A stretch of 64,000 bases of DNA from assembly GCA_018857735.1 (NCBI GenBank), contig JABMCL010002757.1:726501-790500 (forward strand). The letters run 5' to 3'. The position numbers and the translations under genes are program-made. Below the pieces are notes generated by a model, which did no database searches, was not told the DNA's origin, and saw only the letters and a list, made by a program, of their open reading frames with translations. Positions 2,503 through 29,900 of this stretch are shown here, piece after piece. This DNA comes from Alviniconcha marisindica (Eukaryota > Mollusca > Gastropoda > Provannidae). Each line of letters opens with the position of its first letter. Positions within the stretch are counted from its first letter, which is position 1.

Positions 2503-3151
2503 GAAAATCAAGATCAATGTTGACATCACAGTAGCCATGAAGTGCATGGGTGAGTATTTAAACATGACCATGTTAATAATGATTATATATATATATATAT
2601 ATATATATTATATCATGATATGTATGTTGCATTTGCAGAACATACCTGCAGATTTAATGTTCTGAATGTATTGAACTTTGAAGGACAAAGGAAGCTAGAT
2701 AGACATTTAAAGACAGCGTCTGGCTAAAACAGGTCTATGTCATTTTTAAAAGGCATTCCAAGGGAAGACACGTTGGCCTGAGATTAATGAGAACAGAGGA
2801 AATGCACAAATGTTTTTATTTGCAGGCTCCAGACACAAAATGACAACACTTGCAGCTATATTTTTGTGACTTTTTAATGTTTCCTTTTTAACAAATGAGA
2901 CCATAAATTGACTGAAAAACTTCTGTGAGTCTTTCTTCTTCTTTTTTTATCAACAGGGTTTATGATATTTCTTCATCAGGGGCCCTTTTAAGTTTTTTGA
3001 TAGCGAACTCCAGAACTGGTCAACTCACTTTGTGGTAAGCAGCAGATGGTTGTGGTTTGTGACAGACTGCATTGCAAGCTGCATCAACATTAACACCAGC
3101 AGTTTGCAACAGATTAAGTTTACACCGAAAGTAAAAATATCTTTTGGCTGA

Positions 3152-3182
<31 letters not shown>

Positions 3183-3990
3183 AACCCCTCTTCCATCTGT
3201 GTAGTGAGAATCATAGCTCATTGCTTTTGCCTGAAAAGGGTTTTTGGATAAAAATATGACATGAAGGAAAATTTTGAACTATGTCTGTTGTGATAGATTT
3301 TTAAAAAAAGAAGAAGAAAAAGAAGAAGCTAATGCACTGTGATAAGCAGACCTGTCATTGTCAGTCAAAAACATCTTTAAATGAGAACATAAGAATTACA
3401 TTTAGACTGATAAAAACAACTGCTGTGTACATCATGTGGAGCTATCATGCCATTACTTACTTACATGCTGCCTTTACACCTAACAGAATATTGGGCAAAC
3501 ATCCTCAATAATTATCTGGTCAGTCACTCAATGGTGCCCAGCTGTTGCCGAGATCCTTCAGCCCCGCCTCTACCATTCTGCACCACGTTGTTTTGGGCCA
3601 CCCTTTTCTCCTCTGCCCGTGTAACATGAAAAGGTCTCACTGAGCTAACCTCTCTTTCACATCTCACTCCCAGCCCCCAACACCTTCCCATCCTGTCTTG
3701 TCCCATTGTCTTCGCTTTCTGACCCACCCACACATAGATAAAAAACAGCAGCAAAATATCTTGTTGCACAGATATAGGAGCAGATGTTCTGGACCAGACT
3801 GGACAAGATGTGTTCAGCTACGGGATACTGATGGAAGAGCCAGCATACTTTGAGTTGTCACCAAAGCAGCAGAAGTATTTGGAGTTCATGCAGCTGAAAA
3901 ATGATTACCTGCGGCAAGAATACCATGCCCTTCAGGAGTTAATGTGGGGGTCTGACGAGCCTACTTTTTTGGGTGGTATGCCTCCCAGGT

Positions 3991-4034
<44 letters not shown>

Positions 4035-7000
4035 ATGTGTGTGTGTGCATGTGTGTGTGTGTGTGGTACTAGAAAACAAACTATATATACTTTGTTAAGT
4101 ATGCCGATTATTTGTTACTTTGTCATGTGTATTATTCACGTGACATTAACCCATTAAAAGGCTATGTCTGTCTTTAAAACTACTTATTTTGTTGTTGCTG
4201 ATCTGCTGCCAGCTACAACCTAAGAGTGGTTAAAACTTACTACTTCAACTGATTTTTGCCATCATGTTTTATCCACAAAGCTTTTCTGGCAGCTGCATTT
4301 TGGCTTCAGAGGGCAGACTGACATTTTGGCTTGGGAGGGCAGACTGGCTTTGTTGTTGTTAATTTGTTTTGCTTTTGTCCCCACAGGGAAGACATGAAAT
4401 CTGGGGTACCAGATGCATGTCGTGTTCACGGAAGCCTGGAGGTCAGCAAGGTGGCAGGCAACTTCCATATTACTGCAGGAAAGTGAGTCTCTCTGCACTG
4501 CCTGGGTGGAGTGGGTAGAGGGTTCCTGGCTGCCAATCACCAGTGCAGCTTCAGCCAATCAGAACCTTGCAAATAATATTTTGCCCCAAACGTTTTTTCT
4601 AGTACCACACATTTGCCTCACAAGCTAAAGTATTGCAACAAAGCGGAAGACTGTTTGAGCCAAACATAACCATCCAAGTAAGCAGTAGCTCACATTCACT
4701 GATGGCGGGAGGTATCAGCTGCAATGAAATGAGGCAAATTAAGTTCATCTGATTGCTGGGTTCAGACTCTAATCAGCACACTCCGCCAGTCAACACAGTA
4801 CCACATGGACACCAGGTCAAAAGCTGGTGTGAATCTGTTGGAGGCAGGGCCTAGAGCTCAGCACAGAACCCTCAATTGGGTCCACTTGCATGTGCCTTTG
4901 CAAGTAAGTATTATCAAGGAATCCCATGCCATTTAAAGTGTTGAACAGAAAGAATGCTGCAGTTTTTCAAAAGTCTGAAAATGTGTTGGTTATCTCCCTT
5001 AAAGGGACAGCCACCTTGTTAAAATATCTTGTCTAGATCTCCCTATGCAGCATTGTCTCCTTTGAGTGACAGTGAGGTGAAGTTTTTCCAAATTTGCATG
5101 TTTACACTTGCATGTCACTTTCAGCAACTTTGCTCAGATTTTAAGGTAACGGCAGTGGTGGAAAGATGAAAGTGAGAGACTTCAAGATTTGTGCACTTGA
5201 CAGGTTCAGCTACTTGACTTCAACATTGTTACACATTATTGATAGGGCACACAAAACTTTCAATGTTTTATAAATTATATGCAGCATCTTGTAAAAGAGA
5301 TATAACTGGTGCATTTTCTACATCAGTGGAAAACTTGATATTGGCATTATATCAGATTATTTGAGGGAGATCTTAGAAACTCAGTGAGTTAGATTTAGAG
5401 ACAATGTCAGCTGAGTACTTGTTCTTCTTGTATTACTGTATGCTTATTATCATGCATCACTCTCTTTCAAAGACATGTCAAAATGATGGAGCAGAGGTTT
5501 AAATTTTTTACAGATTTTCACCCATTCCAGTGACCCTCTTTACTGTTGTTACAATGAAGTCTGTCATTTACTGATTGGTGGTGTATTTTAGGTCAGTGCC
5601 TGTGATACCCAAAGGACACGCCCACATTGCATTTATGATTGAAGGCAGTGGTAAGCAGTGCATGTTGCATTTTTACCCTCCATTACCCAATGGTATGGTG
5701 TTGTATTTTAGGTCAGTGCCTGTGATACCCAAAGGACACGCCCACATTGCTTTTATGATTGAAGGCAGTGGTAAGCAGTGCATGTTGCATTTTCACCATC
5801 CATTGCCCACTGGTGTTGTATTTTAGGTCAATGCCTTCATCCCAAGGATACAGCCACATTGCATTTATGATGGAAAACAGTGGTAAACAGTGCATGGCAG
5901 CTCTCCTAGACTTGCCTTTCCTAAGTCGTTTATATGTATTCCTGGCATGTAGTGGTTGGTGCATTTATTTTGCAAATCTTCTGGTCTGTCACTGTGTGCT
6001 TTAACAAACTAACTCAGTGTTTGTGCATGTAGGTAATTGTTTGCATTCTCATACCAATCGCACCAATCCCCCCCCACCATCCCGCCCCCACCCCGACTGC
6101 TTTTGGTTTATACCTGTTGTTCAGTTTCACTGCATTTGTGTGTGTGAATTTTGTGGATTGGTGGGTGAGTGGGGGGCTTCTTTTGTGTATGTGAGCATGT
6201 ATGTGTGTTTTTGTTTCAGTGCTTGCCCAGCTTCTTGCTAACAGTAACATTTACTAATTTCATATTGGGTGGCATGTGACGTATGGATCTTTGACCAGTA
6301 AAGGCAGTTGAACCTCTTCACTGCATGGTAGCTTCTTTCATTTGATGGGGAGAATGTTGCCTATTGTAGAATGAAGGGCTATCACTTGCATTTTGCTTTG
6401 GTGTTTAATGAACCATGAGAATGAAATGTAGAGATATGGGGTGCAGTAACTGCCTGTGATGCATTGTTTGGTGTTGATATTAACACAGAGCAGTGGACAT
6501 CCCTAGCCTTGGTCACACTCACTATGCAGCTCTTTTAGACATGGAGGGTAAGTTCATGGGGGCTGCACGGTATGTATAAAAACAGCAAGGACGCAGAGCA
6601 TAAACTGAAGGGGGTTAGGTTGTATGTACTTGAAACTGACTTTCTGCAGAGAGAAAAAAATTGTCCACAGGGAAAAGAAATCTGCGGTAAGAAGAAGAAG
6701 GAAGCACCAGATTTAGTTCTGCACTGAATCACTTGCAAAACATATGGAGTGTGTTCACATGTGGCTATCACCCGTCTTGGTCACATTGTGAAGTCAGTCA
6801 CTTGCTGTTACTCTCAAGGGCAGGTAATAGGCTTGAACGCAGGCAATAGGCTTGAACGCGGTCATTCCTACCGGCTTCTGCACCATGTTTTGGCCAAGTT
6901 CAAGAAACTCACCTTGTTGCCATGTGCTGTCTTTGCAACAGAAGTAAATGGTGAAACATTTATTTTGAGTCTGGATTTGTCCACGCCCACCTGTTACATA

Positions 7001-10000
7001 CCAAAACAGCAAGGACAGAGATGGTAAGCTGAAATGGATTGTTATGTGTGTACAAAAACAGCTTGAAGCTAGGCTAACTGCTTTCGGGGTGTTCATGGCA
7101 CTAACGATCAGCGGTTGGTGCCGTGAACACCGACCGTCGGTGCCGTGAACACCCCGAAAGCAACATCAAGGAAACACTGTGTGTAAAACTTAAAGCTAAA
7201 AAGTGACCACAGATGCAATTCTTTATGCACATTTTAGAAGGAGAAATGTCCCACACCAACAATAGAAGTTCAGAGAAGCATCAACCAGTCAGAATACTTC
7301 AACAAATATTCCACACACAAAAATGGAAACTAAAGCTGAGCAATGGAATGAAAGCTTTGTTCAAAAGCCAGCTGTCTATTGACAACGAAAGACATCCACA
7401 GCTACACTCAAATGAAGGAAATAATATTTGCTTGAATGCTAACATCAGACTTAAATCAATGCAATAAAATGAAAGAAATTACATTCATCAGACTTGAATG
7501 ATCATGCATTTCACCTGTCAGCATCATGCCTCATGGTTGTCAAACAGAGTTTGTGATGAGAGAAGGGGGCTTAGAGCTTACCGCAGAACCCTTCACTACT
7601 TTCCCCCAGTAGACCAGTCATGCCAATGTTATGAGAATTGTGGATAAAATGTGTTGCCCTACTTTCTACAAAGCAGATTAAAAGATAAACATTTGCTTGT
7701 GGAACAATAATCATCTGCTACAGCCAGTCAGTAAATCAGGTCACTTACAAAGATGACCCACTTGTCCTATGCGACCTGGGCAGCCTCAGAACTTATACAA
7801 ACATAGTTCCTTGCAGCTGTACACCATTTCAATAGTAAATACCGATAATAAAACCTCAAATCAAACCCTGTGAGAACTTAGCTGTTTCATCATGTCATTG
7901 TTTCAGTTTGTGTTTTGAACATCTGTCAAATTTGCCAGAAAGAAGACGTACCACCAGGCGGTACATCATTTGCTTCCCTCTTTGATTTTGTCCTTGACAT
8001 GTTTAGTCACTCAAGCAGCAAACTGAATATATGGATGGCGTAGCCTACTGCTGTAAGCAAACACACCATGTAGGCCTACTTATGCTTTATCCCACTTCAA
8101 GTGGTTGTGGCAGCCAGCAAAGTGGGAATACAGTGCAGAAAACTGCAACTACGTTTCTTGATGTCAGTGGCATTGGCATGCTTTTGTTCTTCAGCTGTGT
8201 GAAACAAACATGTACAAGTCTGTAACTTTATTCCATCTCATTGCATAAACATAGCTGAGCTCCATAAAAATCTTTCCAGCACCGGCTGAGTCAACACTGT
8301 TCAGGCATTGACAAATCTGCTGCTTTGTTCTGGATAATCTTACTAATGCACACATTAAGGTCAACATGCTTTCAAAATGTTATGTAAAATACCAGAAGCT
8401 AAAGCACAATTACAACGTATTGTGGCTACTTTTGTGATGTCCTGTGTGAGAGACACAAAAACAAATGACAATCTACTTACCGCAGGCCAAAATGGTCTGA
8501 ATATTATGAGGAGAATATTTCACAGCTACAAATAAAATATACATGTTCTATTAGGCTCTGGTTGTCCTATTTTATATGTGTCAATAAGCATACTTTTGGG
8601 AAGCAGGTGCCACCAGATTTAGCATTGCTGCTTGCTTTTTTAACCAGAACAGTAGATTGACTAGACAAGTTACTTAATTACTTGCCCTGAGATATGTCTG
8701 TGCATTTGAGTCTTTGTTGTCAAAATATGTGTATTTGTAAAATAATTAGTAATTGCTTTGGGCCATTACAGGTTAGGTGTGCTGTCCGTTATTATTAACA
8801 TGGTTAGTTTCATGTAGTCTTGGTGGCCTATATGCTGTGTAACTAAAATGCATATCTATAGCATGGCATCTCCACCAACAAGGGATTGGCACTGCATGCT
8901 TTGCAAGCTGATAAACAAAATAAATAGTAATTAAAAAAAAAAAAGTGCCAGATGACATAGTGTTTGTATACATGTACACAATTATCTCCTATGATTGTCA
9001 TCTGCTGTACCTCATTTGTGCATACGCTGTGTTTCAGACTACAACTTCTCCCACAGGATTGATCACTTCTCTTTTGGCGACCCTGTCACTGGAGTTGTCT
9101 ACCCTTTGGATGGAACCCTTTACATCACAAACAGCAGTAAGTGAAGTGGGTTATTAGCACAGAAGGTGTGGAATGACTAGAGAAACTTCAAGCAACTTGT
9201 TCAGGTGAAAAATCCTGCCTTTGCAACCTTGCCACTAAAAAAGTGCATCCAGGTGTAGCAACAAAGTCTAATGCTGTTCATTTCAGTGGTAAAGCATTTG
9301 CCTGCCTGTACAGTCAAGGGACGAACAGATGGTGGGTGGATGGTAGTTGTATGAAAAGTTGATTGGCTTCTGGACCCCAACTGTGCTGGATCAGAAAAGG
9401 GAAGGGAGAAAGTTTGGACAAGTCAGAGCCTGGTTGTAAAGACAAACACTAGCTTTACCCTCATGCCTGCTGACCCCTCAAGCCAGTAATGGGTTGCCTC
9501 TGGACTGACTGCAGGGACCTTATTAGTCTTCACTGTGTCTAAGAAGAGGTTACTTTTGTCCACAGACTTCCACTTCTACCAGTACTTCATCCAGGTGGTG
9601 CCCACAGAAGTGCGCACCTACACCAACAATGTGGACACATACCAGTTTGCTGTCACTGAGCAGGTAATAAATGATTCTCTTCCCAAGTTCTGGTCCACAC
9701 TGAACCAGAATGATTTGAGACTTGCAGCCAGTCTGAGACTTGCCTGAGACTTGCAGCCAGTCTTAATATGACTTCATGGACTGTTCATGAAGTCTGAATG
9801 ATTGACACAGCGTATCATGCATCCAGGACACTATTTACTAGCATTGTTCAAGCTTTGCAGTTTGGGTTCTGTGAAGGAACCTTTACAAGCTCTCAAGAAT
9901 GCTACTGGTTGACTGGTTTCAAGTGCTGATGAGACATTGTGCATATGAAGGGGGGATTAATTAAAAAAGGTTTTACAATTTGCTGTGCAGTGCAACCTCA

Positions 10001-13000
10001 GCTTACAGTTGGCCATGCAATGCAACGTCAGCTTGAGTTTGCTGTGCAATGCAACCTCAACCTAGTTTGCTTTGCGGTGTAACCTGAGCTTATAGTTGTT
10101 TTGTGAAATTCAGCCTCAGCTTTCAGTTTGCTGTGCTTGCAACCTTACATTTCATTTTGCAATGTAACATCACTTGCAGTTTGCTGTGCAATGCAGCCGT
10201 AGCTTACATTTTGCTTTGCAACCTCAGCATACAGTTTGTTGTGCAATCCATTTGTGGTACAGTGCAATCTCAGCTTGCAGTTTGCTATGCAGTGCAGTAC
10301 CAGCTTTCATTTGCTGTACATGCAATCTCAGTTTGCAGTTTGTCATGCACTGCAGTCTCAACTTACGGTTTGCCGTCCCATGCTGTCAGCTTTCAGTTGT
10401 TGTAAAATGCAACCTGGTTGATCAGAATGCTTTGGTTCCCCCAGCAAATATTTTTGAATTAGCAAGTTTGTTAAATGAATTGTAGGGAAGCGGGATGGGG
10501 AGTGAGGGATGCAGGTTGGAAGCATAAATGAAGAGTCCCAATTCAGAGGTTGCTGTAACATAACTTTTGTTTACACCAACCAGGAAACAGCGTCTGTATT
10601 GGAAAAGACACAAGCAAAGAAAGCAGTTAGGACATGACAGCAAGAGTAAAGAGTAAACAAAAGCAGTTAACTAATAAAGAGAAGAATAACCATGTGGTTT
10701 ACTGGTAGGCTACTATAATACATGATAGTAACAAAATCGTTAATAATCAAGGGTAGAAAATGCTTGCATGACTTGCACTCAAAACCATTATCTCACAGTG
10801 TCGTGGTAAGCATCAAAGACACAGCAGCATCAATTAAATGATGTAAGCTCACAGTGTCACAACAAGTGTAGAAGAAACACCCAGTATCAATTAACTGATG
10901 AAGGCAAACTTACTACATAACCACTGAATATATAATAGTATACAATGAAGTAACACAATGAGAAATACAGATTACAAATATCATCATTAACTAAACAGGG
11001 AGAGTGAAATGATTGTTACAGCAGTTCCACTTAAGCACACAGAGAGACTGACAGTGACACGGGTAGTACTTGGGATCAGGCCACAAGTGGGAGGAAGTGC
11101 CAGTCATAAACTGACTGGCTCAAGCCTCTGTACTCAATTGTGTACAAACTGGCTACAGCACGTCACTGTTACTGACTAGCAGAGCATATCCGTGAACAAG
11201 GACTCAAGGTCAAGGGTATTACCGATGCAGGCAGCGTATCAAGAATCTAAGCCGCTGATCTGGCTGTAGCAGTCTGCTCAGTCAGTGAACAGATACAAGG
11301 ACGCTGCACATGACCTCGTTGCCACAACTGACACGCATCACTCCCGTTTGGGTACACACACAAGGACCCAGAAGGGCTTACAAGCTAGGCAGAGTGAAAG
11401 AGTCTACGCACCCAAGACTTGGCCATACAAAAGCCGGATCAAAAACAGAAATGTTTCTCACAGTTTATAATCAACTCCTATGCACTAAACCATATTCAGC
11501 TATTAAAATGAACATACAAATATGAAATAAACATCTTCAAAGTGTCAGCCATGATATACCACTGATTGCATGTAGAAAAATAGATCGGTAGGAAACAGAT
11601 AAGTTATGCCACACAGAGATCTGCATAGCCGCACAAAGGAACCATACTTAGTTTAGAGGGATAACTTTGCATTGGCAAAGCATCACTCAAACTGAACATC
11701 CAACAATGGCAACATAACATACTAGTTACATATCATCTAACCAGGATTAGCTGCATACTTGTTGGAAGCACTGGTCACTTTGCGGCATAAAGGCTTCAAA
11801 TTTGAACACACATACAATGTACACCTATGTCATGGTGGCAGTAACCAGGCAGCAATCACGCCAAAATTTCCCACGTGTTTGAACCAAAATCAAGGCACAT
11901 TGTGAACATGGTAACATACATCATTTACATCAGTGAGAAACAACAGAACAACAAGCCACAGAAAATAATACTTACAGGCTCTCCCCTGTGAAATCAGACA
12001 CATGGGTGCCCAGGCAGCAGCTCCCAACAACTCGGCTGCTTCTGTAGGGACAGTGGTGCGGTGGGGTGGGGGGTGGGGGGGGGGGGGGGTGCGTGCAGCC
12101 CAAGTACACAGGTTTAATATAACAACTCCATAAGTTAAGGCCATAAAACTTTCGCCCAATCAAAAAAGAGAAAGAAAGGTTAAAATGTCATGGGCCTGGA
12201 AAATGTAGTGCACTTGGCTAAGGAAGTATGCACATCTCCACTCATCTTTGCTTGCTGGTTGGTGTGCAGTGATGCAAGGATACAATATAAAAATTAAAAT
12301 ATATTATTGTGTCTATAATATACATGTCTTACAGTCACAAGTAGTACAACTGAAAGCACTGTCCTTTTATGACTCTTGCTTTATGGATGTTAGAATTATT
12401 TACCTTTTTAAATTCTGGATTGTGATGTTTTTGAGTGAAGGATGGTTCGGTGCACAGTTTGGACTCTCAGAACACTTATTTCTGGATTTAAAAGGAGTAT
12501 GAGCATTTGCAAATTGTGTTACTGTGGAATTACATTTGGATGCTGAGGTTTCCAGACCTGGATTAGTGAGGGTCCATTGTTCATGTAATCTTTGCAGTGT
12601 GGATTCTTTCGGCGTACTTGCATTTAAAAAGAAAAGGCAGTGTGCCTGATCATGATATATATTGTAACAAGCATTAGTAGTGATTTCTTACAAAACATGT
12701 TGTGATTCAAGAACAAGTATGGATGTTTTCCTTTTTTTGAATACAAATTATTTTGATGCATGCCAAAATACTTTCTTTACAGAATCATGCCTTCAAACTC
12801 AGTGAAAGCACCCATGGTCCAGGCATTTTTGTTGGATATGATCTGTCGTCACTTATGATCCGAGTCCGTGAGGAACACAAACCATACAGGCAGTTTCTTG
12901 TCCGCCTGTGTGGCATCATAGGTGGCGTATTCCATGTCTCAGGTCAATGCACTAGTACAATAATTTATTACCTTTTAACATAAACACATATATGCACACA

Positions 13001-15229
13001 CATACACACATACATTTACATGCACACAAATGCACACATGCATGCATACACACACACATGCACACACTGTGTGTACTTATTGAAGTTAAAAAAGTCTTTG
13101 TATTGATAGTAGTTTTTGCACACATGCATGCATACACACACACACATGCGCACACTGTGTGTGCTTAATGAAGTTTAAAAAGTCTTTGTATTGATAGTTG
13201 ACTGGGTGTAAACACCAACTTACTTACTTACTTGTATTGATAGTAGTTTTTGCACACATGCACACACAGTGTGCGCATATCGAAGTTAAAAAAGTCTTTG
13301 TATTGATAGTAGTTTTATGTCGTGTTTTGAGGATGCAAATGTCAAGGCAAGCTGTAAACCATCTGCTCTTTTTATGAATAGAGTGATCTTGTTTTAGTTT
13401 CACCAAAACTTCATAGTCTCTGTCTTCAAATTAATCAGAATTTGTAGCAGGCCCTCAAACCCCCTGAAAGTATAGCCTGATAAATTCTTTTGAACTTTTG
13501 TAGTCATTGTGGTACGAAATGCAGACGCCACATTTTAAGTCTCCTCAGTATTGACACTGACTGACTGAGATTAACTCAACACAAAATATGCATGTATTTT
13601 TTTTATCATGTTAATATAGCCCCTGAGTTTACATAAATCTTTTTTTTTAAATGAGTCAGTTCAAGTTCAACTTTTGTCGTTCTCTATTTTCACAGTTATG
13701 TAGTGCACACAAACAGAAAATGATCTAACCCAAAACAAGCAAGACATTTCCTAAGGTTAAGATGTTTGTTTATGCTGTTAGTTTGGCACATGACAGTTTG
13801 AAGGATTCCAACCAAACAAACATCCAAGTTCTTATGATACTTTTTAAATTGCATTGTATGCAAGTGTCCTTCATCATCAAGATGCAAAGTGATGCAGTGT
13901 AGCTGATCTGGGTTGAGCGCATGGGGCTGTGACAGTCTGCTAGTTTGTGTATTTTTTTCCAATTTTATTTATAACTACTGGTGACATCAAGATTCCTGGC
14001 TTGTGGGCGAAATTATAGTAGCAGACGATATTGACGGCCATTTTGCTTTTTGATTGCCGGCTTTACAGCCGCAATGATGTATTTATTTATAATTTTGTAA
14101 AACTTCAGAAATTAGGTATTTATTGTAATTTTATATATTTATAGCTAGTATTTATGATGTAGACTTTCAAAATATTTCATAAAAGTAGGAACAGGGCTTA
14201 GATTAGATGGATTTGGGATTTGCAGATTTAATCGGTTGCAGAACTTTGAGTCTGGCGCCGAATTTGGTGTGTGTGTTTGTTATCCAGGCTTATTTCTTGA
14301 TTTTTAGGTAAATAAGTAGGAGGACTGCGTATATAGTGAATGTTTGGTGTATTTTAGGGCCCTAGGTTCAAACCTGTAATAGTGTTTAGGGGTATAGGTC
14401 ATGTTGTAGTTAATAAATTTGAGGTTAATTGCTGCGAATGCGGTTCCACGGCTGGGCTCACAGAGTTAATCTTATTTTAGTTTCATTTGATAGACTAGAT
14501 AACAAGGATAATTTTTGATAGATAAAAAGATAATGGTCCGCAGTTTTTGGCATTTTAAACCGTGTTATAATGTGTTTAGTACTTTTTGAGTTAGGGCCCA
14601 ATCAAAAGTTAGAAGAAACACAAGCTAGTAGTTTGAAGTGCCTCAGGCAGCCTGCACAGATTTTGCTGGACAGTGCTGTTTGTGCGGTCCGCCCAGCTGA
14701 TATAAATAAGAGGTGAGTGCAGCAGGTGGCAGCTATCTTGATTTAGTGTTCCATTGGCCCGGGTCCATGACTGCATTTTGGCCACAAGTTCGGGAGAATC
14801 ACCTCGTTGCCACATGCTGTCTTCACAACAAATAAAATGGTGAAACATCTATTTTGACTCTGGAGTGAATTCCCCACAACCTGTCACAGGGCTTTAAGTT
14901 ACCCTTTCACCAATCAGTTAGTTATGAAAGAATCAGTTTATATAGTCCTCATTCCAGAGAACACACTAACATTTTAGCAGCCAATACCATTTAGTTTTTG
15001 CTGTTGATCCCATGCAGGAATGCTTCAGTCGCTGGTCACCTTCATCTACGATGCAATGTGCTGTCGCCTTAAGCTGGGCAAATGTGGCCACCAGGTGACC
15101 TACGATGAAGCAGTGAAAGGCCTTCCAGCAATGTCACTGCCCACTGAAATGCCAGCTGCTCCTTTGCTGGATTCAGCAGAAGAACAAGATGCACAGGATG
15201 GATTTCCACTTCACAGTTCTAGTAACTGA
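2503..15229 (+). CDS. ERGIC2: ERGIC2 copy 1 (ERGIC/Golgi intermediate compartment protein 2), 5' exons outside window
   Basis: Exons: 2503-2549, 3772-3988, 4387-4482, one of four alternatives (5592-5650, 5712-5770, 5827-5882, 6489-6547), 9038-9136, 9566-9663, 12783-12942, 15018-15229 (TGA stop). All have AG/GT borders and compatible phases. The product matches ERGIC2, a two-pass membrane protein cycling between ER and Golgi in the Erv41/Erv46 cargo-receptor family. Visible family segments are DITVAMKC, VHGSLEVSKVAGNFHIT, YNFSHRIDHFSFG, QYFIQVVPTEVRTY, YDLSSLMIRVREEH and the second membrane segment (FLVRLCGIIGG onward). The start codon and first membrane span lie upstream. Compared with copy 2, exon 9 is one codon shorter and has diverged (PYRQFLV for PYWQFLV; NHAFKLSES for NRTINHKEGS). 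No premature stop is seen, so it may be functional or diverging. Its tandem paralogue starts at 20,514. Confidence 0.93.
2584..2609. repeat. (AT)n microsatellite
   Basis: About 13 uninterrupted AT units in ERGIC2 copy 1 intron 3, 35 bp after the exon 3 donor; absent from the matching place in copy 2. Confidence 0.95.
3158..3182. repeat. Poly-C run of 25
   Basis: Uninterrupted homopolymer in copy 1 intron 3. Length is likely polymorphic or assembly-sensitive. Confidence 0.95.
3989..4066 (+). repeat. (GT)n microsatellite starting at the exon 4 splice donor
   Basis: The intron begins GTGGGTGTGTG and continues as GT units with a few CAT interruptions for about 78 bp. The repeat therefore includes the 5' splice site of ERGIC2 copy 1 exon 4. 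Copy 2 has only a short GTGTGTGTATATC version. Confidence 0.95.
5592..5650 (+). CDS. ERGIC2: ERGIC2 copy 1 alternative exon 6a
   Basis: 59 nt between TATTTTAG and GTAAGC. Entering in phase 2 it reads (K)SVPVIPKGHAHIAFMIEGS, matching the lumenal segment that in vertebrate ERGIC2 reads about GKAIPHPRGHAHLAAL. It leaves in phase 1 and joins exon 7 to give DYNFSHRID. Confidence 0.9.
5712..5770 (+). CDS. ERGIC2: ERGIC2 copy 1 alternative exon 6b
   Basis: 59 nt, 61 nt downstream of 6a and almost identical to it, with the same predicted peptide (SVPVIPKGHAHIAFMIEGS). Acceptor TATTTTAG, donor GTAAGC. The flanking intron is also duplicated, so 6a/6b look recently copied or gene-converted. Using 6a and 6b together would shift the frame. 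Confidence 0.85.
5827..5882 (+). CDS. ERGIC2: ERGIC2 copy 1 alternative exon 6c (diverged)
   Basis: 56 nt, 56 nt downstream of 6b, with TATTTTAG acceptor and GTAAAC donor. It reads SMPSSQGYSHIAFMMENS: one codon shorter than the others, with the GHAH core changed to GYSH. The frame stays open and phases match, so it may be a usable variant or an exon starting to decay. Copy 2's 6c keeps PKGHAH. Confidence 0.65.
6489..6547 (+). CDS. ERGIC2: ERGIC2 copy 1 alternative exon 6d
   Basis: 59 nt between TTAACACAG and GTAAGTTC. In phase 2 it reads (K)AVDIPSLGHTHYAALLDMEG and leaves in phase 1, so it can replace 6a-6c exactly. GHTHYAAL aligns with the vertebrate GHAHLAAL, making 6d the variant closest to the vertebrate form. 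I see no difference from the copy 2 version over all 59 nt. Confidence 0.8.
6631..6993 (+). mobile_element. Insertion with LTR-like 3' end in ERGIC2 copy 1 intron 6
   Basis: Copy 2 intron sequence runs through this point (about 25,920) without it. The last 110 bp or so (from CACCATGTTTTGGCC to CCTGTTACA) resemble the 3' part of the solo LTR at 13,928-14,888 (CTTGTTGCCAYRTGCTGTC, GGTGAAACAT), so this is probably a truncated relative of that LTR. The left border was estimated only from paralogue alignment. Confidence 0.45.
7081..7160. repeat. CpG-rich 80-nt perfect-length hairpin
   Basis: CTTTCGGGGTGTTCATGGCA at 7081-7100 pairs with TGCCGTGAACACCCCGAAAG at 7141-7160 with one mismatch (a G-T pair in RNA). 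The loop holds a further direct copy of GGTGCCGTGAACACCG, so a second fold is possible. Its GC content contrasts sharply with the intron around it. It is absent from the matching intron of copy 2. Confidence 0.85.
9975..10420. repeat. Degenerate ~30-bp minisatellite
   Basis: Units of the form CAGTTTGCTGTGCAATGCA followed by ACCTCAGCTTA, about 15 imperfect copies. Several overlapping open frames here (Cys/Leu/Ser-rich) are repeat translations, not genes. Confidence 0.85.
10485..12205 (-). mobile_element. LTR-related element, - orientation
   Basis: Both ends match the element at 18,093-18,412: the left block around GCAGGTTGGAAG / ACACCAACCAGGAAACAG and the right block around AGGCTCTCCCCTG / ATAAAACTTTCGCCCAATCA / GGGCCTGGAAAA. 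Here a 1.37-kb A- and C-rich stretch separates the two blocks, while at 18 kb they touch. It is either a long LTR that the 18-kb copy has lost part of, or an LTR with a nested insertion. No coding capacity is seen. End positions are approximate. Confidence 0.5.
12957..13315 (+). repeat. CA-rich tract and ~85-bp tandem unit, three copies
   Basis: A unit consisting of a CATGCATGCATACACACAC tract, CACTGTGTGTGCTTA, then GAAGTTAAAAAAGTCTTTG and TATTGATAGTAGTTTT occurs near 13,030, 13,117 and 13,250. Copy 2 has one such unit (about 30,130-30,237). A SINE-like tail (TTGACTGGGTGTAAACACC plus ACTT repeats) interrupts the array at 13,198-13,232. Confidence 0.8.
13928..14888 (+). mobile_element. Solo LTR, 961 bp, with 4-bp target duplication
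   Basis: Begins TGTGACAG and ends CTGTCACA, perfect 8-bp inverted ends, flanked on both sides by GGGC. Copy 2 intron 9 shows the near-empty site at about 30,855. Inside are a TATA box (TATAAATA, 14,701) and a polyadenylation signal (AATAAA, 14,831) in the order expected for a + strand LTR. There is no internal coding region, so this is a solo LTR left by recombination, probably of a Ty3/gypsy-type element (4-5 bp duplications are usual for these). Confidence 0.8.
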
Positions 15230-15368
15230 TAATGTCAGCTGACCACTTCCATGCTGCTGTTATAAAACTGTGGTGTTGGTATATAAGCTGAATGGGGGGT
15301 GGGTGGGGGGGGGGATTGCAGCAGTTCATTTTATCATTGTTGTGAAAAGGTGTGTCTAAAGGTCAGGA

Positions 15369-16975: not shown

Positions 16976-17389
16976 GTACTTTTTTTATACAATATATAGA
17001 CACACACATGCACACATACACACACCATACACACATTTACTTGAGGTAGGCTGGAGACAGTTGGAGGTCCTAACTCCAGGCACTGGTTTACAACATCCTT
17101 CCTCCAACCACTGCCATAGATGATTACGCCATAGGTCTCAAAAAACTGTTGGCTAAAGAACAGTTTTTCGATGACGCTCAAACGGCAGTAAGTTTGTAAC
17201 AGACAACTCAAATTACATCAGAAGTTTCTAATAACTGACCACGTTTCATACACCAGCACAAATAAAACCAAAATCATATGAATTGAGACAGAACTTCTTC
17301 TTTTTTCCTGTGGCAGATGCATCTCCTGTTTACGTGGGTGCTTGGGCGCTATGTTGCTTCCACAGTCTTATCACTACCCAAGGCAACAG

Positions 17390-18065
17390 GTTATCTCAAC
17401 TCAGTGTCTGCTCCTGCCCACCAGAGAATGGTTTGACTCCATACACATGCATGCCGGGGTAGGGACGTGCCACTGTCACAACGTGCAGTTCAGGATGCCA
17501 TTGGTCTTGGATCTTGCTCCTGCCAAGGATACGGTTTCTCAGGTAGACCAGGTCACCAAAGTGTAATGAGTGATCTGCAACTTTCTGGTCCATCTGCTTT
17601 CGTCTGTCCGCTGCAGCTTCTTGGGGATGTTTCAGTGCCCTGGCATGTGGATCCTGCAGCTGCAGGTGCAGTCGATGCTGCTGTACCTAATGAGTGGGTC
17701 CAGCCATAGATGTGGTTGTATGCCCAAGCAAGTGGTCAACTGGTAGCTGAGGTTGCCTGGACGAACAGGAGGAAGTGGGGTGAAACCCCAGTGGAAATGT
17801 GAGGCGTGTTGTTATATGCCTGCACAAGCTCTGGGAGGTACTGCAACCACTTGGACTTCTGTTCTGGAGGCAGGGTTCAAAGCAGATGATGCAAGGAGTG
17901 ATCGAATCACTTGCACTGTGCATTGCCATGGGGGTACGGTGGTATGGGGTTGTCCGGGTCTTCTTGATGCTATAGAGTCCACACTGTGGATCTTCTGGGG
18001 GACCCCGTACGGTGTTGGAACCAATCAGGCATGAACCAATACCTTGGCCACCGTCCCTGCATCCT
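17390..18065 (-). pseudogene. Broken Ty3/gypsy integrase
   Basis: Read on the - strand from 18,065 down: DAGTVAKVLVHA, then a stop, YGVPQKIHS, IKKTRTTPYH, HGNAQC with a stop and frame change, [14 protein letters not shown], and finally HFGDLVYLRNRILGRSKIQD followed by GVKPFSGG. These are in the order of the retroviral-type integrase core and the C-terminal GDLV domain of Ty3/gypsy polyproteins. Several frameshifts and stops make it non-functional. Reverse transcriptase, protease and gag are not seen, so only the 3' end of pol remains. It lies between the two ERGIC2 copies. Confidence 0.8.
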
Positions 18066-18092
18066 GCTAGCCAGCACCAAACCGCTTTGTAG

Positions 18093-18412
18093 GAACTGAA
18101 GTGGGGTGGGTAGTGAGGGAGGCAGGTTGGAAGTATAAATGAAGAGTCACAAGTCAGAGGTTACATAACTTTTATTTACACCAACCAGGAAACAGTGTAG
18201 GCTCTCCCCTGAATCAGACACATGGGTGCACAGGCAGCAGCTCAAAAACGACCTGCTGAAGTTCTGCAGGGACACTGGGGGAAAGGATGCAGCGGGCCCA
18301 GCACGCAAGTTTTAACATTTTGTATGTTAGGACCATAAAACTTTCGCCCAATCAAAACTGAAAGAGAAAGAACAACAGAAAGAAAGTTAAAAGGTCATAT
18401 GGGCCTGGAAAA
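18093..18412 (-). mobile_element. LTR-related sequence next to the integrase remnant
   Basis: Shares GTGAGGGAGGCAGGTTGG, ACACCAACCAGGAAACAG, AGGCTCTCCCCTG, ACTTTCGCCCAATCAAA and GGGCCTGGAAAA with the element at 10,485-12,205, but lacks that element's 1.37-kb middle. It sits on the pol-upstream side of the integrase, not where the 3' LTR of that remnant should be, so it is a separate or rearranged insertion. Confidence 0.5.
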
Positions 18413-20513: not shown

Positions 20514-20922
20514 ATGCGGCGACTAAATGTCAGCAAGAAAGGAGCACTGAAAGTGGTTAAGGAGCTTGATGCATTTCCTAAAGTTCCAGAGGACTGCAAA
20601 GAAACGTCTCCCTCAAGAGGAGGATGTAAGTCACAGTTTTAATGAATATTACAAAATGTTCTTGTTACTTGTATACAAACTGGCAACTTTTCTGTTTACT
20701 TCTGTGATATTAATTTTTGTTATGGTAATTATACATGGAAATTTATTTAGAAAATAAAATACTCACAGACACCTGGAGGTACCAATTAAAACTTAATGTA
20801 GCAGACCTTTTGATAGCAACTCCTGAAAGAATAGCAGGAGGAAAGAAAAAAAAGGAAAGAAAAAAGTGACCATTAATTAATATAATTATAGACTCTTGGC
20901 CTATGAAATAGTTGGCCCAGTT

Positions 20923-20962
<40 letters not shown>

Positions 20963-23900
20963 TCACATTCTTGGCATTTGCTTATAAATATTGTTAGAAA
21001 CAGCCAAAATGAAAAAATATGTGGGATCTGAGATCATTGAGTGAGTGTACAGTAGAGTATTATTTTGCTCATCTTTGACACAGTGTCACCAATCATTGCT
21101 GAAGTGAAAAATATGTGGGATCTGAGATCCGTGAATGAGTGTACAGTGAAATATTATTTTGCTCTTCTTTGACACAGTGTCACCAAGTGAGAAAATTATA
21201 CATGTATCATGTATACAATACTTATCCACATTAAAATGACAGCCTATACATGTATGTTTTGTTAACAATGATGGATCCTTATGAATGTTAAACAGTCAAG
21301 CTGATCACACAAAGACAAAAATATTCTTTTGATAGTGACTTCTTGCATTTCAATTTTGATTATGGTTTTCATTTTTTTCATGGGGCATAATGCTGTGTAA
21401 GGCCATAAGGGTAAGTAGTACTAAGAAGTACTATGTATCTATTCAGAGAAATCACTGCTTTGACAGAAGAAGAAGAAATGTATACATGTACACCTATGTA
21501 CAGTGATACAGACACTGAGACAGAGAAGCACCTAAAGACGTGCACATTCACATACACATGCACAGCCATTGTACACATTTTGAAATGTTGACTGTGTGTT
21601 TGCAGTGTCCATCATGACATTCTGCCTGATCATCATCTTGGTACTGTCTGAAATAGAATACTACACCAGCACTGAGTTGCAGTTTGACTATGAAGTAGAC
21701 ACCAATTTCTCCAGGTACACATGGTGATGTATTACATGATTCATAGATTTTACATCAACAAGGGCTGGTTTAATGAACAAGGTAAATGCTAGTGGAAAGC
21801 CCTCCATCCCACTGTGCAGTTATAGTTGTACTTTGTATGCACAGTTTGAAGTTACAACAGCCTGATTGATAACTGAAAGTGTATGCTTTCAATCCTTTGT
21901 TTGATAGACATCATTTAACCCTCAGAGACCTGAGCACTCTTGCAGCAAGGAGAAAATGATGAAACTTGGTGTGGATTCTTAACTTGGCCCCAATATCTCA
22001 CTTCACTTACCACTTAATTTTTTTTTTTTTTTTAGTGACCTGGACCTGGATTTCCTCTGTGGAAAAGATTGATGGATGGAATAGAGGATAGATGGGCGGG
22101 GGAAAGATAAGGGGGGGGGGGGGGGTGATGGGAAGAAGATTGATGGATGGAATAGAGGATAGATGGGCGGGGAAAGATAAGGGGTGGAGGGGGTAGATGG
22201 GATTGATGGGAGGATTGATGGATGGAATAGAGGACAGGGGGGGGGGGGGAGGGGTAGATGGAGGTGGAGAGAGATGAATAGGGATAGGATAGATTGGGGG
22301 GGGGGGGGGTAGATGGAAGAGGATTGATGGGGGGGGGGGGGGGGAGGGGTGAGATGGGAATGGATTGATGGATGGAATAGAGGATAGATGGGCGGAGGGA
22401 AAGATAAGGGGGTGGAGGGGTAGATGGGATGATGGGAGGATGATGGATGGAATAGAGGACAGGGGGGGGGGGGGGTAGATGGGAAGGGGTGGATATGGAT
22501 GGAATAGAGGATAGGGGGGGGGGGGGGGGGGTAGTGGGGAAGGGTTGATGATGGGAAATAAGGGATGGGGTAGGATGATGAAGAGGATCAATGGGTGGAA
22601 TAGAGGATAGAGGGCTGTAGAGAGGATGGATGTGGAAGGGGGAAGTAGAGAGGATGGATGGGGGGGTATACAGGATGGATATGGAGGGTGTACATAACAA
22701 ACACCAGTAGAAAGCCATTAAATACACACTTTCCTCACACTTTGTAGCCAGCATGTTACCACCATTTCTTTGCTTTGCACCCTTTCTATAAGAAGTGCTG
22801 GTAACATTTTGGTTCTTGCTTCTTGGCTTTTAGCGGTATTTCTGCTTTCATGCATAAGCTAGTTTACTGACTCAGGAATCAAGTCAGACTAGAACTAGAA
22901 GTCCGAATTTTAACTGTATCTAAATTGTAATTGTAAGCCAGGTAGTATGCAGGTGGATATAACACAGCTAAAATTAATATTATTATTGATGTTCTGTATG
23001 GGCTGACAGTCTTATTTTTCTTCTGTATCAGTCATATGTGGGTGGGGGGATGTGTTGCTTTACCTTCATCTTCGTCCATTTAGTGGCCACACTGGTTGAT
23101 TGCACTGCTACTTTTGTCTTTGCAGGCATTTGCTTGTTTTCCATTAGATCATGATGATGATGTCATCAGTTGAGTACTTTTGCAGTTTGACACTTTATGA
23201 AAAGAGTCTTTCTGAAAGCTTGTGCAGAACATTTTGATATTGTTGCAGGAAAATCAAGATCAATGTTGACATCACAGTAGCCATGAAGTGCATGCGTGAG
23301 TACTTAAACATGGTCATGTCATGATGTGTAATAAATACATAATTTTGTACATATAAATAAGCTGCATCATGATACGTGTGTTGCATTTGCAGACAATTCC
23401 TGCAGATTTAATGTTGTGAATGTATAGAAGTGCGAAGGAAGTTGAATATGTATTTAAAGACAGTGTCTGGCTAAAACAGGTCTGTGTCATTTTTAAAAGG
23501 CATTCCAAGGGAAAACACATGTTGGCCTGAGATTAATGAGAACAGAGGAAATGTGCAAATGTTTTTATTTGCAGGCTCATGTAACATGAAAATGTTTTAC
23601 TGATTAACCTAGTCTACACCTGCCACTGTCTTTCACATGTATCTCACTCCCAGCCCCCAACACCTTCCCATCCTGTCTTGTCCCATTGTCTTCACTATCT
23701 GACCCACCCACACATGGATAAAAAACAGCAGCAAAATATCTTGTTGCACAGATATAGGAGCAGATGTTCTGGACCAGACTGGACAAGATGTGTTCAGCTA
23801 CGGGAAGCTGAAGGAAGAGCCAGCATACTTTGAGTTGTCACCAAAGCAGCAGGAGTATTTGGAGTTCACGCAGCAGGTTAACGATTACCTGCGGCAAGAG

Positions 23901-26900
23901 TACCATGCCCTTCAGGAGTTGATGTGGCGGTCTGACAAGCCCACTTTTCTTGGTGGTATGCCTCCCAGGTGTGTGTGTATATCTGTGTGTGCTTGTGTGT
24001 GTGTGGTACTAGAAAAGAAACCATATATATAAATATATATGGTTAAATATACTGATTATTTATTACTTTGTCATGTGTATTATTCATGTGACATTGACCC
24101 TTTAAAAGGCTATGTCTGTCTTTTAAACAGCTTATTTTGTGCTCGAAAGGTTGCTAGTACTTTGTTGAATAAAACCACCACTACAGGTTCTGCTTTGCCG
24201 ATCTGCTGCCAGCTACAAATTCACAAAGCTTTTCTGGCAGCTGCATTTTGGCTGGGGGGGGGCGGGGGAGCAGACTGGCTTTGTTGTTAATTTGTTTTGC
24301 TTTTGTCTCCACAGGGAAGACATGAAATCTGGGGTACCAGATGCATGTCGTGTTCATGGCAGCCTGGAGGTCAGCAAGGTGGCAGGCAACTTCCATATTA
24401 CTGCAGGAAAGTGAGTCTCTCTGCACTGCCTGGGTGGAGTGGGTATAGGGTTCCTGGCTGCCAATCACCAGTGCAGCTTCAGCCAATCAGAACCTTGCAA
24501 ATATTTTGCCCAAAAGCCCCCACCATGTTTGCCACACAAGCTAAAGCATTACAACAAAGTGAGACTGTTTGAGCCAAACATAACCATCCAAATAAGGAGT
24601 TCACATCCACTGAAGGCTAGAGGTATCAGCTGCAATGAAATGAGGCAAATTAAGTTCATCTGAATGCTGGGTTCAGACTCCAGTCAGCATACTGATGACC
24701 CATTTTTTCTCAAAGTGCCTCAAGCTTTTCCAAATGACAGTGGTGAGTCACAACTACATTTCACAGCAAAAATTCAAAGAGACTTGGAATCCATGTCAGC
24801 TAAGTACTTGCTTTTCTTGTATTACGTAATGCTTATGATCATGTGTCATTCTCTGTCAGAGACCTGGCAGAATAATGGAGCACAGGTTTGAAGGTTTGAC
24901 AGATTATCACCTGTTCCAGTGACCCTCTTTACTGTTGTTACAATGAAGTCTGTCATTTACTGATTGGTGGTATATTTTAGGTCAGTGCCTGTAATACCCA
25001 AAGGACACGCCCACATTGCGTTTATGATTGAAGGCAGTGGTAAGCAGTGCATGTTGCATTTTTACCCAATGGTATGGTGTTGTATTTTAGGTCAGTGCCT
25101 CTCATACCTAAAGGTCATGCCCGCATTGCTTTTATGATTGAAAGCAGTGGCAAGCAGTGCATGTTTACCCTCCATTTCCCATTGGTGTTGTATTTTAGGT
25201 CAGTGCCTGTCATACCCAAAGGACATGCCCACATTGTGTTTATGATGGAAAACAGTGGTAAGCAGTGCATGGCAGCTCTCCTAAGCTTGCCCATCCTATT
25301 TCCATATATTCCTGGCATGTCATGGTTGGTACATGCATTTTGCGTGTTTTCTGGTCTGTCACTGTGTGCTTTAACAAACTAACCTTTAGCTAAGTGTTTG
25401 TGCATGCAGGTAATTGTTTGCATGCTCATACCAATCCTTCCCCCCCCCCCCCCCCACCCTTCTTTTGTATATATGTGTGTGTGTGTGGGCATGTGTGTTT
25501 TTGCTTGAACACTTGCCTGGCTTCCTGCTAGTAACAGTAACATTTACTATTTTCATTTTGGGCAGCATGTGAAGTATGGATCTTTCACCAGTAAAGGCAG
25601 TTGAACCTCTTCACTGCATGGTAGCTTCTTTCATCTGATGGGGAGAATGTTGCCTGTTGCAGAATGAAGGGTTGTCACTTGCATTTTGCTTTGGTGTTTA
25701 ATGAACCATGAGAATGAAATGTAGAGATATGGGGTGCAGTCACTGCCTGTGATGCATTGTTTGGTGTTGATATTAACACAGAGCAGTGGACATCCCTAGC
25801 CTTGGTCACACTCACTATGCAGCTCTTTTAGACATGGAGGGTAAGTTCATGGGGGCTGCACGGTATGTACCAAAACAGCAAGGATGCAGAGGGTAAGGTT
25901 GTGTGTTCAGTGTACCTAAACAGCTAGGACGCGGAGGGCACGCTTAAAGGGGCTATGTTGTGTGTACCAAAACAGCTTGGAGCACTGAAAACGGAGTGCA
26001 GGGGTTGAATAAAGATTCTGAAGAAGGTTGAGGTTTGGGTGTGCTGGTCACAGAACCAGGACCCAAAGCTCAAACCACAGGTCTTGTTCAAGTTCTGCTT
26101 GGTGGATGAACAAACTTGCATGTGTGTACAGTCAAATACTGAAACGAAGGTGACTGGCAGTATTAAGAACAAAACAACAGCCAAGAGGAAGCAGATTAGA
26201 ATGCACAAAGATTAACAATGAATGCTTTTTGTTGAGGTGGGACAAAACAGTACACATTTTTGATAAATATTCAATTTCATAGTGACTAGCAGACGGAGAA
26301 GGAACAGAGTAATCCATTTGTAGCTTGTAAAAGGCAGAATTGCCCTCAGTTTGCACAATATTTTGTTCTATCTCTATTATATAAAGAGTGTTGATTTTAT
26401 TTCCTGGGTTTTGTGTGTTATGATTTCTGTGTCATATGCACAATATTCTCTGCGTGTGGTCTGTTTGCTGGAGGTGATAAATTTCACCCTGAAGTTCGAT
26501 AAAAAGACTGGTGTTGGTGGCACAGAAGGCTTGGGCTCTTTGGTGTGATTGGATGATGGAAGGGGGGGGAAGAAGATTGTTTGAGCAAGTCACAGTAGTT
26601 GGCACAGTTTCTGTATGAATTAAGGTACATGATACCAGGTTTATGGTTGTTTTTGTTTTATTTTTTAATTGCTTTATTCCTTTCAGCTGATTCAAAATAG
26701 ACGTGTTGTCTTTGATGTTGCATGTATTTTTTTTTTAATCATTTCATTTTAAAATTAAAACTGGGCAGCAGTTTTCATTGTTCCTGTCTGATGGTTAAAT
26801 TGATGTGCATAATAAGTAACCCACAGAGTGGGAAGATAAGTACCTTAATGGCATATATATCTGTGCATATTCTGCCAGTGAATGGTTAGTTGGGCTAGGC

Positions 26901-29900
26901 AGTGTGGCTCTGTGGCAGTTGGCTTTCCAACAGAAAACAACCAGATTTTTTTCAAATTACAAAGAGTTTTGACATGTTTACCACAGTTTGTTGGTGCTAG
27001 CTTCAGGAAGGTTCATACAGTCTTTAAAAATCTGCAAAAACTGAGGTGCCTTTCTCTGGGCCTGGAAAGTTTGGGGAAAATGACAGTTAGCCAATATCTT
27101 GGCAAGTTTGGGAATTTCATGATACTGATAATCTGCTTAACAGTGGGTGATAAAAGGAACAAAGTAAATTTGTTGACTTGAAACCCAACTGTTGAAATTG
27201 TGTGCATAGCTGAGCAGCAACTTGGTCTGGGAAACTGGTCATTAAATTTGTTTTGGAAAAGTTAGAAAGTTTGAATTAAAAATCTTGTACAAACCAGTTC
27301 AGCTAAGAGATTTAAGATGATTTTACACTGATCCAGACAGTCATGATTGCCTAGCCATATTCCTTTGACTCAGGCCGTAGTATGCTTGCTTTCCTTGTAA
27401 TTTATGCTGTGCTCTGTTCAAGTTCTATGTTGCTTTACATCCACAGAGACCCTAAGGACTATTAGGGATGTCACTGTGCTCTGGTTGTAATCATTCTTAG
27501 TATCTTCACTCTGCAAAGAAAAAAGCTGGTGTTTTTTTAGCAGGCCCTTGATACAATGGTGTCAACATACACTTGACTGCCATCAACCATGGGAATTATA
27601 ATAAAGAAAAACAGCTTGTTTAGAGTGCAGTAACATTTAGTTCAACACTTTTTTCATCTTGTCTTTTTAGCACTCTTCTTCCAACGTTGCCGTATGTAAA
27701 TGTGTGTGTATTTTCTAACTTTGTAACTTTCCTGTTTTCTAACAATATTCATGGTTCAAAACATCATTGAATGTTGTTAATCCTGGGTTGAGTTTTGATT
27801 TTTTTTTAGGGGGGGAGGGGGGGGGGGTGTATCACTTATATCTTTGCAACCAAACTAGATGTGTTGATGTACTATTATTAATAACCAGACCTAGTGCAAG
27901 CAAAGTGGGCCTATAATTACAACAGTGACTTACAGTAACAAGGCATACAACTGGGGCATTTTTCCCTGAAGGCAACAAACCTTGTTTTGTAAGTATGTAT
28001 GCCAGTATGGTCTCAGTTGAAGTGTATATTTTCAGTTCATAATCATAGTCATTTTTACAGGAATCTTATCCTGCATTTGGTGCATCTTTGAATACAATAG
28101 CATGGTCAGATTGTCAAAGCAAAATAACTCTGCATAATCCTGCACACAGCTGTAGAACTGCTTTTTCACAGTCACCATCTAGTGATATTCATTTATCTAA
28201 CATGTTTATACCCTTCTCTTACCAGGCTCCAACTACCTGCAGTCCACTGCTTCTTTCCATCTGTCATGCTACCTCTGTCAGTTCTTTGAAATTTTTCATG
28301 AAAACACAACTCTTTTTTTCAGTCCCGTTGCCCTGGGATTATTGTTAGATTATACATTTGAATATTTGAAAGAAATTAACATTTTTGCAAGATTATGATG
28401 CTGTGATCAGTTTTTCATTCTGTTTATGTTTGAACCCATTTTACCTGTTTAAAAAAAATTGAAGATGTACCAGTTTTAACATGTATTTTATTTTGAGTGT
28501 TTATTGTGTTCTAATGAAATGTTTCAACCTGTTATAACCTTTCTGGTATAGTGGGCATAAGAAAACAAGTTACTTTCTTGCCCTGAGATGTGTCTGTGCA
28601 TTTGAGTCTTTGTTGTCAAAATATGTGTATTTGTAAAATAATTAGTAATTGCTTTGGGTCATTACAGGTTAGGTGTGCTGTCCGTTATTATTAACATGGT
28701 TAGTTTCATGTAGTCTTGGTGGCCTGTATGCTGTGTAACTAAAATGCATATCTATAGCATGGCATCTCCACCAACAAGGGATTGGCACACCGTGCTTTGC
28801 AAGCTGATGAACAAAATAAATAGCAATTAATTATTATTTTTAAAGGTGCAAGGTGACATAGTGTTTGTATGTACACAGTTATCTCCTATGAAGTATGACT
28901 GTCATCTCTGTTTGTTGTTACCTTTCATCTTTTCTATTTGCTATACTTCACTTGTGCATCTGCTCTGTTTCAGACTACAACTTCTCCCACAGGATTGATC
29001 ACTTCTCTTTCGGTGACCCTGTCACTGGAGTTGTCTACCCTCTGGACGGAACCCTTTACGTCACAGACAGCAGTAAGTGAAGTGGGTTATTAGCACAGGT
29101 GTGGAATGACTGGAGAAACTTCAAGCAACTTGTTCAGGTGAAAAATCCTGCCTTTGCAACCTTGCCACTAAAAAAGGGCTTCCAGGTGTAGCAACAAAGT
29201 CTAATGCTGTTTATTTCAGTGGTAAAGCATTTGCCTGCCTGCCATTTGACTGTACAGTCAAGGGACAAACAGATGGTGGGTGGATGGTAGTTGTATGAAA
29301 AGATGATTGGCTTCTGGACCCCAACTGTGCTGGATCAGAAAAGGGAAGGGAGAAAATTTGGACAAGTCAGAGCCTGGTTGTAAAAACAAACACTAGCTTT
29401 ACCCTTATGCCTGCAGACCCCCCAAGCCAGTAATGGGTTGCCTCTGGACTGAATGCAGGGACCTTAGAAGAGGTTATCTTTGTCCACAGACTTCCACATC
29501 TACCAGTACTTCATCCAGGTGGTGCCTACAGAAGTGCGCACCTACACCAACAATGTGGACACATACCAGTTTGCTGTCACAGAGAGGGTAATTATTGATT
29601 CTCTTACCTAGTGTTGGATACGGAACAACCAGTCTTGTTCAATGGCCTGGGAGAGGCAGAGGCTTACATCCCTTCTTAATATGACTTCACGAGCTGTTCA
29701 TAAAATCTCTGAATTATTCACAAAGCCTGTCTTGCATCCAGGACACTATTTGCAAACATTGTTCTGGCTTTGTAGTTTGAGTTCTGTGAAGGAACTTTCA
29801 CAAGCTCTAAAGAATGCTGATTGATGTTTCATGCAACCTCCTTTCAGTAAAAATGATTTTGATGCAGTGCTGAAACTACATGACGAAATACCTTCTTTAC

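Follow-up and report, generated by a model that had tools for sequence, protein, structure and literature searches.

Both of the tandem ERGIC2 genes that we found in the window, the whole 64,000-nucleotide stretch of Alviniconcha marisindica DNA analysed here, appear to carry a cluster of mutually exclusive exons (rough probability 0.8), as judged from exon anatomy and from comparison with relatives. The cluster would encode alternative versions of a hairpin of about 20 residues in the lumenal domain. The initial annotation had described such a cassette for copy 1 only, where it is indeed present; missing from it was the second, complete gene, which holds the same cassette, again between exons 5 and 7. 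Exon 3 is the first exon of copy 1 within the window, exons 1 and 2 lying before the window start, and the stop codon of this copy ends at 15232. Copy 2 is complete, its coding region running from the ATG at 20514 to a native stop at 31207 on the + strand. The features of copy 1 are as follows.

2503..2549 (+): exon 3, recognised by its match to copy 2; open frame
3772..3988 (+): exon 4
4387..4482 (+): exon 5, ending in phase 2 (..AGK, codon split as AA/x)
5592..5650 (+): exon 6a, SVPVIPKGHAHIAFMIEGS; branch-site match before the acceptor, branch A 18 nt from the intron end
5712..5770 (+): exon 6b, peptide identical to that of 6a; 58/59 nt
5827..5882 (+): exon 6c, 56 nt, SMPSSQGYSHIAFMMENS; the first His of HxH, elsewhere near-invariant, is missing
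6251..6488 (+): intron sequence before 6d, with TGCATG at 6322
6489..6547 (+): exon 6d, AVDIPSLGHTHYAALLDME; alternative type
9038..9136 (+): exon 7
9566..9663 (+): exon 8
12783..12942 (+): exon 9
15018..15232 (+): exon 10 with stop

The features of copy 2 are as follows.

20514..20625 (+): exon 1 (ATG)
21606..21714 (+): exon 2
23249..23295 (+): exon 3
23752..23968 (+): exon 4
24315..24410 (+): exon 5
24981..25039 (+): exon 6a, encoding the peptide of copy 1 6a
25091..25149 (+): exon 6b, SVPLIPKGHARIAFMIESS; GC donor (gcaagc); Arg replaces the invariant His
25199..25257 (+): exon 6c, SVPVIPKGHAHIVFMMENS
25782..25840 (+): exon 6d, 59/59 nt shared with copy 1 6d
28974..29072 (+): exon 7
29490..29587 (+): exon 8
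29903..30065 (+): exon 9
30993..31207 (+): exon 10 with stop

The identification of the gene as ERGIC2, proposed earlier, is well founded. The full-length copy 2 protein, 404 residues long with any one of its four cassette exons, carries both domains that mark ERGIC2 membership, ERGIC_N (PF13850, 83.7 bits, cut-off 27) and COPIIcoated_ERV (PF07970, 155.6 bits, cut-off 23.6). Among the top database matches listed, the named ones are ERGIC2-like and the others are unnamed gastropod proteins; the Babylonia and Littorina matches, both 82% identical, belong to the former, and a Nucella match, also at 82%, is named “hypothetical.” Erv41p (3zlc) was the only PDB sequence match (E 9e-19), and it was also the top fold match of a structure model of the Babylonia orthologue.

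Self-comparison of the window indicates that the two genes are tandem duplicates with interrupted similarity. The tandem arrangement would also fit an assembly artefact, with the second gene or the tandem exons representing uncollapsed haplotypes, yet this is scarcely credible: in much of the aligned intron the copies differ by about 15% or more, with many indels, and dS in exons 3–5 and 7–8 is about 0.12–0.17, which is more than expected of alleles, and in either copy 6a, 6b, and 6c are unlike one another in sequence and spacing. Between the two duplicates, exon 9 (12783–12942 versus 29903–30065) is the least conserved exon, with 132/160 identities and a 3-nt gap. GGATGG-rich low-complexity stretches occur upstream of exon 3 in both copies (495–1920 and 22061–22614). 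Fragments between the two genes (17282–18160, -) resemble, by eye, a retroelement tail, and further along the window lie open frames that we take, by eye, to resemble an RsmH/METTL15-like methyltransferase (35013–39096, -) and a tetraspanin (42505–48206, +), as well as a tandem array (53710–54545) with a spacing of about 88 bp and repeats 91–94% alike. No matches were obtained in tRNA and Rfam scans of the window.

The anatomy of the copy 1 cassette is as initially described, with four AG/GT-bounded candidate exons of 59, 59, 56, and 59 nt that are entered in phase 2 and left in phase 1, each completing the Lys codon begun in exon 5 and leaving one base to exon 7. The four exons of copy 2 are likewise in phase with one another, and all cassette exons in both copies are 59 nt long except copy 1 6c (56 nt). 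The proposal that exactly one exon fits the frame was also supported, as 16 patterns are possible in each copy and the frame runs through to the native stop in just the four that include a single exon (from exon 3 onward in copy 1, whose exons 1–2 precede the window). The remaining 12 end early, such that double inclusion and skipping are unproductive; joining all four exons restores the downstream reading phase, yet an early stop is met. The claim of four alternative versions holds only in part, because 6a and 6b yield the same peptide in copy 1, as the annotation itself had said while still counting four, and copy 1 would thus make three products.

Exons a–c are clear homologues, adjacent and in the same phases, as is typical of mutually exclusive clusters, and they resemble the usual molluscan segment with its GHAH core; exon d encodes a different version, with GHTH. 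As d and a of copy 1 agree at only 34/55 nt, the case for their homology is made from position, phase, and the HxH core. We scored 59-nt open segments bounded by AG and GT/GC in introns 5–7 against a profile of known segments, mostly of the usual type, a scan that leaves out the 56-nt copy 1 6c. Copy 1 6a and 6b and copy 2 6a–6c scored 48–61, 6d of both copies came next at -10.0, and the best other segment there reached -35.9; no further 59-nt exon-6 candidate in these introns came near the known ones. Against printed maxima of -7.6, -10.5, -12.9, and lower from 60 simulated 64-kb sequences, the 6d score taken by itself stands out only modestly for 64 kb. Further support comes from the position of 6d in the intron, its complete identity between copies, and its likeness to Littorina X2.

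The real switch is likely between the a–c type and the d type rather than four-way, given that 6a and 6b of copy 1 are equivalent (1/59 nt differs) and that copy 2 6b and copy 1 6c seem partly degraded. In an alignment of 72 relatives, HxH always keeps its second His and almost always its first; copy 2 6b has Arg in place of the invariant His, and copy 1 6c has Tyr in place of the first. Relative to copy 2 6c, copy 1 6c also lacks three bases, and its peptide has SSQGYSH where the other has VIPKGHAH, a difference that either three 1-nt deletions or one 3-nt deletion plus substitutions would explain. These two exons look relaxed or specialised. The frame of copy 1 6c (5827–5882) is intact despite the net loss of three bases and the scrambled core peptide.

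The state of these two exons, copy 2 6b with its GC donor and lost His and copy 1 6c altered and shortened, would also suit a rival reading in which only one exon type is used (e.g., 6a, which has the best branch site) and the rest, including d, are unused duplicates. In addition, among a–c a complete branch-site match precedes only 6a, in both copies at 18 nt from the exon, and the last 60 nt upstream of 6b and of 6c contain no such match. Use of a single type nevertheless seems improbable: the 6d frame is open and its donor reads gtaagt, an annotated Littorina isoform is of its type, and all 59 of its positions agree between copies that differ elsewhere. Between the copies, 6a shows two synonymous and no amino-acid changes, and 6d shows none. 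The 250 nt before 6d are likewise similar (238/250, gapless), but blocks equally alike are found before exon 4 (97/100 nt), after exon 5 (94/100), and after exon 7 (93/94 aligned nt, with gaps), and conservation around 6d therefore counts for less as evidence of regulation. Such blocks of identity would fit gene conversion.

An alternative version of the segment seems to be common to more than this species. A first protein search found 1046 relatives, 120 of them among the matches listed, in clusters at 90% identity, a level at which the two forms of a single species could not both appear. From the 62 best relatives (P0001–P0062), 60 segments were parsed: 47 are usual (score of 62 or more against 6a, all GHAH), three are intermediate (P0052, P0057, and P0060), and ten are strongly different, scoring 33 or less; the unparsed P0043 and P0046 read GHAH. 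The strongly different ones are P0004 (Littorina saxatilis X2), P0014 (Patella caerulea), P0044, P0045, P0047 (Mya arenaria X1), P0050 (Tubulanus X3), P0051 (Dreissena X2), P0055, P0056 (Lineus X2), and P0058 (Lamellibrachia). Outside the segment, Littorina X2 is 87% identical to copy 2, and the usual-type snails in P0001–P0005 are 87–89% identical; inside it, Littorina X2 matches d at 8/18 positions versus a at 4/19. As the proteins are closely related overall, exchange of the segment accounts better than drift for the gap between scores of 33 and 62. Consequently, the view that ERGIC2 is switchable “in this lineage” was probably too narrow in scope, with 10/60 parsed relatives strongly different. 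That vertebrates carry one segment here, as the initial annotation also held, is supported by Xenopus (P0069, GKAIPHPRGHAHLAAL), and in 171/172 relatives, whose sequences are mainly predicted or translated open frames, the flanking motifs enclose one segment no longer than 32 residues. In 29 clusters of P0001–P0062 the longest contig falls short of 5 kb; a gene with such introns would not fit into it, so these clusters are probably cDNA. Two of them (P0045 and P0055) are of the different type, and the other 27 are not.

How far exon d itself can be traced is a separate matter. The motif [LV]GH[VIL]H, the class of the exon d LGHTH, occurs in 5/10 of the different segments (P0004, P0045, P0047, P0050, and P0051). 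Orthology of d across phyla is a conjecture, as only P0004 and P0050 prefer d over a and many usual segments have equally high raw scores to d. Searching with the exon-d region gave 117 proteins from 121 candidates; most were relatives of the usual type, and because the method relies on shared 5-residue words, Littorina X2 was not listed. No d-type snail fragment was seen among 40 matches of a short-fragment protein search for same-species pairs, in which some matches resemble unspliced genomic reading frames of close relatives.

The alternative segments of other species might instead come from separate ERGIC2 paralogues, with d a lineage-specific gain and its likeness a case of GHxH convergence. 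Such paralogues would accord with the tandem ERGIC2 duplication seen here and with the preference for d in only two of the ten divergent relatives. We consider this unlikely, as each gene copy here contains both types, and as the divergent entries from Littorina, Mya, Dreissena, Tubulanus, and Lineus (X2) bear the isoform names X1–X3, which NCBI gives to several products of one gene. For the exclusive cluster in Alviniconcha, the ancestral state would be two choices, the usual segment (type a) and the alternative one (type d), with type a amplified in tandem to three copies, some of them decaying, before or during the gene duplication. As a tentative extension, which could well be wrong, a two-way exclusive pair encoding a lumenal hairpin with [RK]GHAH or [LV]GHxH may have arisen early in lophotrochozoans and been kept in gastropods, bivalves, and nemerteans, allowing tissues to re-tune ER-Golgi cargo; in some snails, one side may have grown to three exons and the gene may have been duplicated.

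Exclusion would operate in two ways: the introns among a, b, and c (49–61 nt) would be too short for mutual splicing, and any pattern but exactly one exon would lead to an early stop. In copy 1, intron a–b has 61 nt and intron b–c 56 nt; the copy 2 counterparts have 51 and 49 nt, and the remaining listed introns measure 315 to 3133 nt. YTNA branch candidates in the short introns, which are consensus guesses with those 2 nt from the intron end ignored, lie 24, 24, 24, and 17 nt from the donor. Such short spacing between donor and branch point blocks splicing in vertebrates and would do so in snails too. The steric criterion in a human survey is under 50 bp (PMC5740500); with the predicted branch points, the distance is under about 50 nt for a–b and b–c but not for c–d. 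With an intron of 606 nt (copy 1) or 524 nt (copy 2), c and d could be joined, and would have to be kept apart by regulation or removed via the early stop.

Other multi-exon clusters use docking-selector RNA pairing, as in Dscam (PMC8042237 and PMC6071210), and exclusion by such pairing is highly improbable here, since in each copy intron 5 and the cassette have just one pair of exactly complementary 10-mers, a different one in the two copies, and 11-mers for the intron after d are likewise unshared. This rejection is based on exact pairs only, none of which is common to both copies.

The choice between a–c and d would instead be set by regulators. Exon d, with a gtaagt donor and a putatively weak acceptor within a conserved intron block, would need activation or release from repression. 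At positions -20 to -5, pyrimidines number 8/16 for a, b, and d and 10 for c versus 9–14 for 15 other acceptors, a modest gap. Candidate elements are Rbfox-type UGCAUG motifs beside a–c and upstream of d. TGCATG follows each a, b, and c donor by 9 nt in the two copies (6/6) and occurs at +9 of none of the 16 other listed donors; it also lies about 167 nt before d in both copies (6322 and 25615), with others between c and d. The sites at a–c are probably one inherited event, and the motif is frequent (70 in 64 kb; 0.11 expected per 100 nt), so that the pattern is treated as a lead only. The effect of Rbfox follows the position of the motif relative to the exon, and by this rule the candidate sites would favour a–c and disfavour d. 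An upstream UGCAUG represses egl-15 exon 5B in C. elegans (PMC3585155).

In models of the Babylonia (P0001, usual) and Littorina (P0004, alternative) proteins, with a mean pLDDT of 79.4 each, the segment folds into a short hairpin (strands 194–197/203–206 in P0001 and 194–198/202–206 in P0004) that is flanked by two strands of the lumenal domain. Confidence in the segment is lower in the Littorina form, with block means of 74 and 65 versus 85 and 79. The swap is predicted to keep the fold and change the surface; it would alter the cargo or partner preference of the lumenal domain, and may affect cargo or ERGIC3 pairing. Beyond Erv41p, the next fold matches of the P0001 model are PAC/ASOR/TMEM206 chains (E about 1e-8 to 1e-5, probability 1.00, TM about 0.3), followed by ASIC and P2X chains; a relation of the ERGIC2 fold to two-helix trimeric channels is possible.

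ERGIC2 is usually viewed as a constitutive part of early secretion. An exon-encoded swap of one lumenal hairpin would concern a receptor piece that may set selectivity, and a membrane-traffic receptor would join the genes with exclusive exons. Human ERGIC2 acts in the ER-Golgi transport of Sonic hedgehog and is reported to be cargo-selective, for Shh but not IGF2 (PMC13229121). We found no description of an ERGIC2 exon cluster among the matches listed in open-licence PubMed Central (for ERGIC2 splicing and isoforms, exclusive exons, and ERGIC/Erv trafficking, partly with loose terms), and “ERGIC” is absent from the main text of the human survey of exclusive exons (PMC5740500).

Compared with known systems, copy 2 shares both domains (PF13850 and PF07970) with ERGIC2 and yeast Erv41, but the known proteins have one segment version each among the matches listed, whereas the snail gene encodes several. 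Muscle myosin heavy chain differs from the snail ERGIC2 cassette in that its one long gene contains several clusters, backed by transcripts. Its clusters of exclusive exons extend across metazoans (PMC3912159), and such a cluster is also what we propose for the snail. The oyster alternative oxidase (PMC5589949) is a molluscan case of a tandem duplicated exon with alternative use, as proposed for the snail, although in another gene and with another exon number. The C. elegans genes unc-32 (exons 4a–4c and 7a–7b) and egl-15 (5A/5B) show exclusive use, and RBFOX proteins with UGCAUG act on unc-32 7a and egl-15 (PMC3585155). Like these, the snail cassette is an invertebrate exon set with (predicted) exclusive use; unlike these, for which there are reporter and mutant data, its UGCAUG is a sequence match only. 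Overall, this kind of system is known, and the news is the gene and the likely breadth.
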